NCBI GenBank assembly: GCA_021793235.1
Contig: JAJYTD010000040.1
Location: 1 to 33,071 of the forward strand
Source of the DNA: Actinomycetes bacterium
GTDB taxonomy: Bacteria; Actinomycetota; Actinomycetes; Streptosporangiales; Streptosporangiaceae
Length of the DNA: 33,071 nt
Reading direction: 5' to 3'
Below the pieces are notes generated by a model that saw nothing but the letters and a program-made list of their open reading frames with translations, ran no database searches and was not told where the DNA came from. This document shows, piece after piece, positions 13,855 through 15,358 of this stretch (position 1 is the first letter of the stretch; every line of letters starts with the position of its first letter). A program made the position numbers and the translations under genes.

Positions 13855-14682
13855 TCAGGCCCGCGCCGCGCCCAGGAAGTCGGTGAGGAGGCCGGTCAGG
13901 CGGGCGGGCGCGTCTTCCTGGACGAGGTGGCCCGCCCCGTCGAGCCAGCGCAGCCGCGCGCGCGGGATGTGCTCGGCCAGCCGCTCGGCGTGGTGCGGGT
14001 CCAGCCACCCGTCTTCGCGGCCCCAGGCCACGAGGACGGGGATGTCGAGTTCGCCGTAGCGGTCCTCCACTTCGCGGGTGTGGCGCTCGTCGGCCTGGGC
14101 GATCTGGCGGTAGAACGCCGCCTGGCCGGTCTCACCGAGCCAGGGGCGGGCGAGCGCGTCGAGGACTTCTGTGCGCGGTTTTCGGGAGCAGGCGGTGGAG
14201 ATGTAGCTGCGTACCAGTGCTTCGTGCAGGTGGGCGGGCAGCGCTGCGAAGACCTCGGTATCCGCATTGACCAGGCGGAAGAAGGCACTGCCCCAGGGGC
14301 GCAGGCTCACCGCGTCGACCAGCGCCAGGCGCGCGTAGTCGACACCGTCCAGCAGTGCCGCCCGCAGGGCGACCGCCCCGCCGAAGTCGTGGGCGACCAC
14401 GGAGGGGCGTTCCAGACCCCAGTGTTCGAGCAGGGCGGTGAAGACGGTCTGCTGGGCGGCCAGTGACACGTCCTGCCCGTCGTACATGTCCGACTGCCCG
14501 TAGCCGGGCATGTCCCACAGGTAGACCGCGTGCCGGTCGGTGAACGCGGCGGCGATGTCGCGCCAGACGTAGGAGGAGAAGGGGGTGCCGTGCAGGAACA
14601 CCACGGGTTCTCCCGCGCCCCGGCGACTCCAGCGGACGGTTCCGTGCGGTGTGGCGAGCCGCTCGTCCAGTTCCCAGGCCAT
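13855..14682 (-). CDS. Alpha/beta hydrolase with Asp nucleophile (haloalkane dehalogenase/epoxide hydrolase-like), 275 aa
   Basis: Alpha/beta hydrolase fold with oxyanion loop HGTPFSSYVW (residues 31-40) and nucleophile elbow VVAHDFGGAVAL, in which Asp99 takes the place of the usual Ser. WGREDGWLDPHH carries the likely acidic residue and GAGHLVQED the catalytic His near residue 245. An Asp nucleophile is the hallmark of haloalkane dehalogenases and epoxide hydrolases (family knowledge); the exact reaction is not clear. ATG 14682 has AGAGGGA upstream. It is transcribed away from the CGNR regulator gene across a tandem operator-like repeat, so control by that regulator is an attractive inference. 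Confidence 0.9.
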   Translation of the reverse strand: MAWELDERLATPHGTVRWSRRGAGEPVVFLHGTPFSSYVWRDIAAAFTDRHAVYLWDMPGYGQSDMYDGQDVSLAAQQTVFTALLEHWGLERPSVVAHDFGGAVALRAALLDGVDYARLALVDAVSLRPWGSAFFRLVNADTEVFAALPAHLHEALVRSYISTACSRKPRTEVLDALARPWLGETGQAAFYRQIAQADERHTREVEDRYGELDIPVLVAWGREDGWLDPHHAERLAEHIPRARLRWLDGAGHLVQEDAPARLTGLLTDFLGAARA

Positions 14683-14697
14683 GCCGATCCCTCTATG

Positions 14698-14762
14698 GTT
14701 ACCGCCATTTTCCATAAGAAGGTAACCATGGGTGTTACCGCCGTCAATTCGATGGCGGTAAC
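14698..14762. promoter_or_regulatory. Tandem 29-bp inverted-repeat operator (two copies, 36-bp period)
   Basis: Each unit is GTTACC, 17 bases, GGTAAC: unit 1 at 14698-14726 and unit 2 at 14734-14762. Both have exactly the same 6-17-6 layout. The outermost half-sites extend to a 12-base match, GGTTACCGCCAT (14697-14708), with its exact complement at 14752-14763. The array fills most of the 88-bp divergent space between the hydrolase and CGNR genes, ending eight bases before the CGNR ATG. Autoregulation by the CGNR protein is inferred. Confidence 0.7.
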
Positions 14763-14770
14763 CTCTCCGT

Positions 14771-15358
14771 ATGGCCTACACGCGACCGGCGGCTCCGGGC
14801 TCCCTGGAGCCCATCGAGGCGTTCTGCAACTCCGCCCGCTTCCTCTACGGGGAGGACGCTTTCGCCGATCTGCCGAGCGCGCGCGCATGGCTGCGCGGCC
14901 GCGGCTGGTCTGCGGCGGCGAACGCGCTGGACGAACCAGGGGTGCGGCGGCTGTACCGGGTGCGCGAGGCCATTCGCGACCACATTGCGGACCCCGGTGC
15001 GAAAGACGCGCGCACCGTGCTGAACGACCACGCCCGCGCCGTGCTCAAAGCTCCGCAATGGGCGCCGAGCGGCGAAGCGCTGATCCCGGTGGCCGCGCAG
15101 GAAGGGATCGACACCCTCATCGGCGCCCTGTTGTCGACGCTGGCCGTCGAAGAGCTCGCCGGTCGGCGCGCCCGGCTGAAAGTGTGCCGGTCCCCACAAT
15201 GCCGGTGGCTCTACTACGACCGCTCCCCCGGCAACAACAGCGTGTGGTGCAGCATGAACATCTGCGGGGCACGGCACAAGATGCGCTCCTACCGCGGCCG
15301 TCGCGGCGACGGCGCCCCTGCTCAAACGCCGCCGGATCGGCCCGCCGAGCGGGATTGA
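14771..15358 (+). CDS. ABATE/CGNR zinc-finger putative transcriptional regulator, 195 aa
   Basis: The N-terminal part (about residues 12-130) resembles the ABATE domain, thought to bind a ligand, and the C-terminal part is the CGNR-type zinc finger: Cys139, Cys144, Cys160 and Cys165 in a C-x4-C-x15-C-x4-C layout, with CGAR in place of CGNR, followed by the basic KMRSYRGRR. Proteins of this class are predicted DNA-binding regulators and remain little studied. No Shine-Dalgarno is visible before ATG 14771, so a leaderless or near-leaderless mRNA is possible. It diverges from the Asp-nucleophile hydrolase, and the shared intergenic DNA carries the tandem GTTACC operator. Confidence 0.88.
   Translation: MAYTRPAAPGSLEPIEAFCNSARFLYGEDAFADLPSARAWLRGRGWSAAANALDEPGVRRLYRVREAIRDHIADPGAKDARTVLNDHARAVLKAPQWAPSGEALIPVAAQEGIDTLIGALLSTLAVEELAGRRARLKVCRSPQCRWLYYDRSPGNNSVWCSMNICGARHKMRSYRGRRGDGAPAQTPPDRPAERD

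Follow-up and report, generated by a model that had tools for sequence, protein, structure and literature searches.

In the window, the whole stretch of 33,071 nucleotides that was analysed, the gene of a CGNR zinc-finger regulator (P0001, 195 aa, 14771..15358, plus strand) lies divergently from the gene of an alpha/beta hydrolase, its presumed target (P0002, 275 aa, 13855..14682, minus strand). The intergenic gap has the 88 bp given in the sequence-only reading, with 14682 taken as the start of the hydrolase and 14771 as that of the CGNR gene. Most of this gap is occupied by the two GTTACC-N17-GGTAAC inverted repeats that were reported there, and both were confirmed to be exact. The hydrolase-proximal unit, O1, extends over 14698..14726 (half-sites 14698-14703 and 14721-14726) and the CGNR-proximal unit, O2, over 14734..14762 (half-sites 14734-14739 and 14757-14762). 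Neither unit is assigned to a strand and both are kept in orthologues; they start 36 bp apart and 7 bp lie between them. The 12-bp exact inverted match claimed for the outer half-sites was also found, with GGTTACCGCCAT at 14697-14708 and ATGGCGGTAACC at 14752-14763. A GAGGGA sequence on the minus strand (14688..14693) is the putative Shine-Dalgarno sequence of the hydrolase gene, its role being inferred.

When the whole assembly was searched (4,817,083 bp in 119 contigs), the exact pattern was found only as O1 and O2, and a reversed control pattern gave no match. With up to two mismatches allowed, 76 matches were obtained compared to 72 for the control, indicating that only exact or near-exact sites stand out; no wider regulon was detectable in this genome at that threshold. 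The four matches found in the window with three mismatches allowed were not above chance (shuffle mean 5.55). A one-mismatch unit, GTTACC-N17-GGTAAA, was seen elsewhere in the genome (L379, C34:170279-170307), where a GDSL lipase/acylhydrolase gene begins about 90 bp further on.

The zf-CGNR domain of P0001 (PF11706, 2e-16, residues 135-178, encoded at 15173..15304 on the plus strand) scored 59.9 bits against a gathering score of 24. Its cysteines C139, C144, C160 and C165, the zinc-binding residues of a treble clef, were invariant across 35 aligned homologues. The predicted fold of P0001 matched Jann_2411 (PDB 3h0n), which consists of an ABATE domain and a CGNR finger and is the founding member of PF07336 and PF11706. 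The match over residues 6-181 had a Z score of 11.3 in the VIA comparison (168 residues aligned at 16% identity and an rmsd of 6.1, the next match having Z 2.8) and an E value of 4e-7 with Foldseek, and Jann_2411 was the only clear solved structural relative of the model. In the model P0001 has the two-domain fold of Jann_2411, and the four cysteines are conserved; however, the N-terminal domain of P0001 was not recognised by the Pfam ABATE model (PF07336), which does match a Rhizobium relative (L362). CGNR zinc-finger genes are common: of 21 genomes sampled, 19 had 2 to 12 of them. One paralogue in the window's own genome (L003, C1:41157-41324, helix KA) is also next to a hydrolase of the alpha/beta type (25% identity to P0002), and its upstream DNA carries CTAACC-N18-GGTTAT.

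Jann_2411 was reported as a likely dimer, with the treble-clef finger proposed to bind DNA and the ABATE domain proposed as a ligand sensor (PMC2954205). The words operator, palindrom- and promoter are absent from the available part of that paper, so to that extent it gives no DNA target. In the accessible portions of PMC9976334, PMC3485107 and PMC4260502 the CGNR zinc finger is mentioned once each, in a gene table. Among the matches listed, no operator for CGNR zinc-finger proteins was found in the open literature; subscription papers were not covered.

P0002 matched Abhydrolase_1 (4e-25). Its nucleophile, assigned by motif only, is D99 in HDFGG, which aligned with HDYGG of 5w15 ('Alpha/beta hydrolase fold protein'), the nearest solved chain by sequence (E 1e-69), and H252 is the likely base, again judged by motif. 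The Asp-nucleophile motif assigned to this hydrolase in the sequence-only reading is supported; its identity as a dehalogenase or epoxide hydrolase could not be demonstrated, since P0002 fell below the NCBIfam cut-offs for haloalkane dehalogenases (76.5 bits vs 241, 63.7 vs 466 and 58.3 vs 265).

Orthologous loci were defined at E <= 1e-25 in 19 of 150 family genomes, the window's own included, and Amycolatopsis anabasis was added to give 20 loci. In all 20 a unit carrying no more than one mismatch directly preceded the CGNR gene. Absence of the repeats from orthologous divergent regions, the outcome that would have refuted the proposed binding sites, was therefore clearly not the case. A divergent hydrolase lay beside the CGNR gene in 19 of the 20 loci, with 54-76% identity to P0002 outside the window. 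At L009 there was no hydrolase in the stretch examined, and one unit still preceded the CGNR gene. With L054, L055, L066 and L067 included, the set comprised 24 loci, 19 with two units and five with a single unit. The spacer was 17 in 42 of the 43 units and 18 in the other one, while the gap between the units of two-unit loci was 7 in 12 loci, 0 in four, 8 in two and 6 in one. The nearly fixed spacer together with the loose gap indicates that one unit is the functional object and that the units act separately, not as one phased complex.

In the 150 family genomes the exact GTTACC-N17-GGTAAC pattern occurred 39 times and its reversed control 7 times. For 30 of the 39 sites the distance to a CGNR gene was no more than about 2 kb. 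CGNR orthologues accounted for 25 of the 39, and an exact site was present in 16 of the 19 orthologue-bearing genomes. One exact site each was found in 14 of the other 131 genomes, five of them adjoining a divergent CGNR gene or lying about 1.6 kb from one. Around the remaining nine sites zf-CGNR was not found within 1.5 kb on either side, and their number is about the control level. In two Rhodococcus plasmids (NZ_CP089607.1 and NZ_CP023721.1) the genes form a hydrolase-CGNR operon, the hydrolase being 48% and the CGNR protein 38% identical, and on both an exact unit starts 45 bp and ends 16 nt before the hydrolase start. Since the site stays with the CGNR gene where the hydrolase is missing (L009) and precedes the first gene of the tandem operon, its assignment to the CGNR protein, only an inference in the sequence-only reading, is now well supported by comparison, though without binding data. 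The two units of the window turn out to be one case of what appears, from comparison alone, to be a conserved site pattern of a poorly known regulator family.

Palindromic operators are common to many regulator families, and the sites might belong to another regulator, for example of the TetR or GntR type, that controls the module; the nine exact sites without CGNR in the stretch examined could be explained in this way. We find this barely credible: the CGNR protein is the regulator common to the loci, the site lies beside the CGNR gene of L009 without a hydrolase, it is also kept near CGNR genes of 30-40% identity having different neighbours, and its bases covary with a CGNR residue, as described below.

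In genus g33 (L032-L035; genomes G032, G082, G108 and G129; CGNR identity 33-34%), the gap between the CGNR and MFS genes contained a one-mismatch unit directly before the CGNR gene, and an exact unit at a distance of about 1.6 kb preceded a FAD-binding oxygenase-like gene. The gene order CGNR, MFS transporter, FAD_binding_3 oxygenase-like gene was read from the open frames of G108; in G032, G082 and G129 the DNA beside the exact unit was alike. These three genes make up another type of CGNR module, again with putative GTTACC operators. In genus g34, L047 and L048 both have an exact GTTACC-N17-GGTAAC preceding an apparent response-regulator gene, recognised by eye from its first residues, and zf-CGNR was not found in the stretch examined around the site.

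The CGNR-proximal unit is merged with a probable promoter. The last half-site of O2 runs into TAACCT (14759..14764, plus strand), a probable -10 element of the CGNR gene located 6 nt before the ATG, and a weak -35-like TTACCG (14735..14740, plus strand) is found inside half-site 3, 18 bp before TAACCT; both roles are inferred. On this side the last half-site ran into TAANNT in 24 of 24 loci, and in all of them ATG or GTG followed 6 or 7 nt on. This constant short distance to the start codon suggests that TAANNT is probably part of the promoter of a leaderless CGNR mRNA, an inference that draws on actinobacterial promoters. On the hydrolase side, a T at the equivalent -10 position was present in only 3 of the 24 loci, all with a single unit. 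TAACGT occurred on both sides of the unit at the single-unit loci L023, L066 and L067. At the other loci O1 ends close to the Shine-Dalgarno sequence, which means that the promoter of the hydrolase gene must be situated further inside; it was not located.

It could be argued from the invariable TAANNT 6-7 nt before the start codon, and from the -35-like TTACCG 18 bp upstream, that the conserved hexamers are merely the -35 and -10 elements of back-to-back promoters and that their symmetry is a by-product. We consider this highly improbable. The hydrolase-side half-sites are kept although the T at the -10 equivalent is present in only 3 of 24 loci, and a spacer of 17 in 42 of 43 units is tighter than promoter function demands, promoters needing less strict spacing than this. 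Moreover, other clades keep ACC-N17-GGT with the outer bases GAC, GTG or CAC, which abolish TAAC, and the spacer in Pseudomonadota is mostly 19. An RNA hairpin or attenuator was also considered and is not favoured, because the CGNR-proximal unit precedes the probable transcription start and the arms beyond 6 bp vary among loci.

From the observed sites and their conservation, linkage, geometry and covariation, we propose, with a probability of about 0.82, that O1 and O2 are two separate autorepressor operators through which the adjacent ABATE-like/CGNR protein represses both genes until it is released by a ligand. Binding, repression and ligand are all inferred, and there are no binding or expression data. 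In the proposed mechanism, each unit would be bound by a CGNR dimer, with one treble-clef finger per half-site; the half-sites, 23 bp or about two helical turns apart, would lie on one face of the DNA. The finger helix would contact the invariant ACC/GGT core, and Met171 would contact the neighbouring T, as inferred from covariation. With O2 overlying the promoter of the CGNR gene, whose mRNA is probably leaderless, and O1 covering the region where the hydrolase gene begins, binding is proposed to repress the two genes. Release of the dimer is attributed, by inference, to a ligand that is probably a substrate or product of the hydrolase.

Activation instead of repression is not excluded. The CGNR protein might bind and activate the hydrolase gene while repressing only itself, and since TAANNT is missing from the hydrolase-side half-site in 21 of 24 loci, the core promoter could lie outside O1. 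We nevertheless regard such activation as unlikely, as in many loci only a few bases separate the end of O1 from the Shine-Dalgarno sequence, a position suiting repression, and the single units of L023, L066 and L067 have TAACGT on both sides.

The geometry of such putative operators was evaluated in 87 non-redundant regions upstream of Actinomycetota zf-CGNR genes, most of the loci having been found by similarity to P0001. Exact xxxACC-N17-GGTxxx repeats were present in 28 of the 87, while spacer 18 was found in six, spacer 9 in four and every other spacer from 5 to 35 in 0 or 1. With the window's orthologues left out, ACC-core repeats remained in 19 of 76 regions at N17 and 6 of 76 at N18. 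Exact 6-bp inverted repeats of any sequence, for which GTTACC was not assumed, also peaked at N17, where 39 of 87 regions had one, compared to a mean of 9.9 for each spacer in 4 shuffles. Other odd spacers were raised as well (30 at 19, 27 at 11, 26 at 13 and 24 at 9), which we read as longer palindromes sharing the same centre. The outer triplet differed by clade, being GTT, GAC, ATA/GTA, GTG/ATG or CAC. The proposed operator class, xxNACC-N17/18/19-GGTNxx with a fixed spacer beside the CGNR or target gene, is met by the window with its two exact units and by its relatives.

A second sample consisted of 76 PF11706 regions, taken from 21 genomes and from a list ordered by E-value and not chosen by similarity to P0001. 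Here the exact ACC-core rule was met in only 3 of 76 at N17, 2 at N18 and 4 at N9. Allowing one outer mismatch raised the count at N17 to 10, but 7 were found at N9 and at N23 too, and repeats of any sequence gave a weak peak (23 of 76 at N17 vs 22 at both N7 and N19). The share of hits is probably an underestimate, because regions similar to those already used had been removed. The 3 of 76 at N17 indicate that the rule covers a large branch and not the whole zf-CGNR family; with 6 of 16 Pseudomonadota loci also lacking a site, it is not valid for all zf-CGNR proteins. Some branches appear to use spacer 16 (L099, L061 and L063). The small excess at spacer 9 (4 of 76) hints at another operator class, and the own-genome paralogue L002 is preceded by GTCACC-N9-GGTGAC as read by eye.

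Among Pseudomonadota plasmid loci, an alpha/beta hydrolase was found within the stretch examined in 13 of 16, and 10 of those 13 had AACC-type units. Over all 19 plasmid loci such repeats occurred 12 times at N19, twice at N18 and at no other spacer from 8 to 30. Two of the first seven plasmid loci, Frondihabitans (KA) and Sphingobium (KG), were without a site. When [GA]TAACC-N19 was predicted for 12 further Pseudomonadota loci, six had N19, one had N18 only and five had none; the six include two from Pantoea, close to the first one, and two from Paraburkholderia. In Rhizobium sp. CB3090 the hydrolase is preceded by two tandem N19 units and the CGNR gene by one, an arrangement similar in idea to that of the window. 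On large Pantoea plasmids (L363, L366 and L377) the divergent CGNR/hydrolase pair is flanked by a YbhB-like gene and proP.

The base next to ACC tracks, with exceptions, the residue X that follows the lysine in the zinc-finger helix CGxRxK-X. In P0001 (CGARHK-M-R) this is Met171 (codon 15281..15283, plus strand), a candidate base-reading residue by covariation, which the predicted structure (mean pLDDT 92; 72-80 for the block around this residue) places in the C-terminal helix 162-181. The rule pairs Met with T, Thr with C, Gln, Ala, Val or Ser with A, and Asn with G. For 139 representatives, mostly the data from which the rule was derived, N17 sites with T/C/A/G were counted as 19/0/0/0 for Met (24 representatives), 0/11/1/1 for Thr (27), 0/0/4/0 for Gln (4), 0/0/0/3 for Asn (3), 1/1/3/0 for Ala (22) and 0/3/0/1 for Val (38). 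A prediction stated in advance was then scored on 42 new independent loci out of 120. Asn had G in 2 of 2 and Ala had A at N17 in 2 of 4; of the 14 loci with Thr, five had C, two A, one G and six no N17 site. Ser, for which nothing had been predicted, had A in 2 of 2, and no new Met or Gln locus was parsed. Of eight loci that the pattern could not parse, L250 (KT with C) agrees, L355 (KM but C) is an exception, five are siteless, and L303 has GTTACC with no protein read. Val gave no signal in Actinomycetota and was found with A in Pseudomonadota CGNRxKV proteins; the Val-A entry, like the unpredicted Ser-A, was thus added after the fact.

In a tree test with 73 proteins the minimum number of changes was 12 for the base and 15 for the residue, giving 1-3 independent pairs on starred branches, too few for significance. 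The mean number of opposing pairs was 0.0 per comparison, with one opposing pair for Thr-C in a few of 200 random pairings. When 52 exact-arm loci were clustered at 45% identity, 15 of 18 clusters agreed (p 0.00005 with the rule fixed, 0.0009 with the rule refitted in each shuffle), the exceptions being L355 (Met/C), L336 (Thr/A) and L189 (Thr/G). Agreement was 19 of 22 at 50% and only 5 of 6 at 40% (p 0.03). The clusters are crude, one of 17 loci mixing Met and Gln proteins. A link between one zinc-finger residue and one operator base is probable from these comparisons; the rule appears strong within clades, with few independent origins.

Divergent pairs of an autorepressor and its target are known for regulators of the TetR or GntR type, and the window resembles them in having a regulator and an enzyme with palindromic operators over a shared promoter region. 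The DNA-binding domain differs, however, and the CGNR sites have short half-sites and a wide spacer of 17 (or 18-19). In the DNA-binding domains of nuclear receptors, treble-clef fingers read hexamer half-sites and P-box residues choose the bases. The likeness consists in a zinc-finger helix on a GGT-core hexamer, with one CGNR residue seeming to set the neighbouring base; no sequence relation is claimed, and CGNR proteins are bacterial and have one four-Cys finger per chain and inverted half-sites with spacers of 17-19. In a wider proposal, for which we see even odds, a large zf-CGNR branch in Actinomycetota and Pseudomonadota would consist of dimeric regulators reading xxNACC-N(17-19)-GGTNxx, in which X of CGxRxKX would set N (Met-T, Thr-C, Gln/Ala/Val/Ser-A, Asn-G) by a nuclear-receptor-like one-residue code, and their ancestral partner would be an alpha/beta hydrolase.

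With the predicted site and the residue-to-base rule, the regulons of many regulators not yet studied could be guessed from sequence. A target gene is also named, coding for an alpha/beta hydrolase that has the motif of an Asp nucleophile, and the CGNR family becomes directly testable by experiment.
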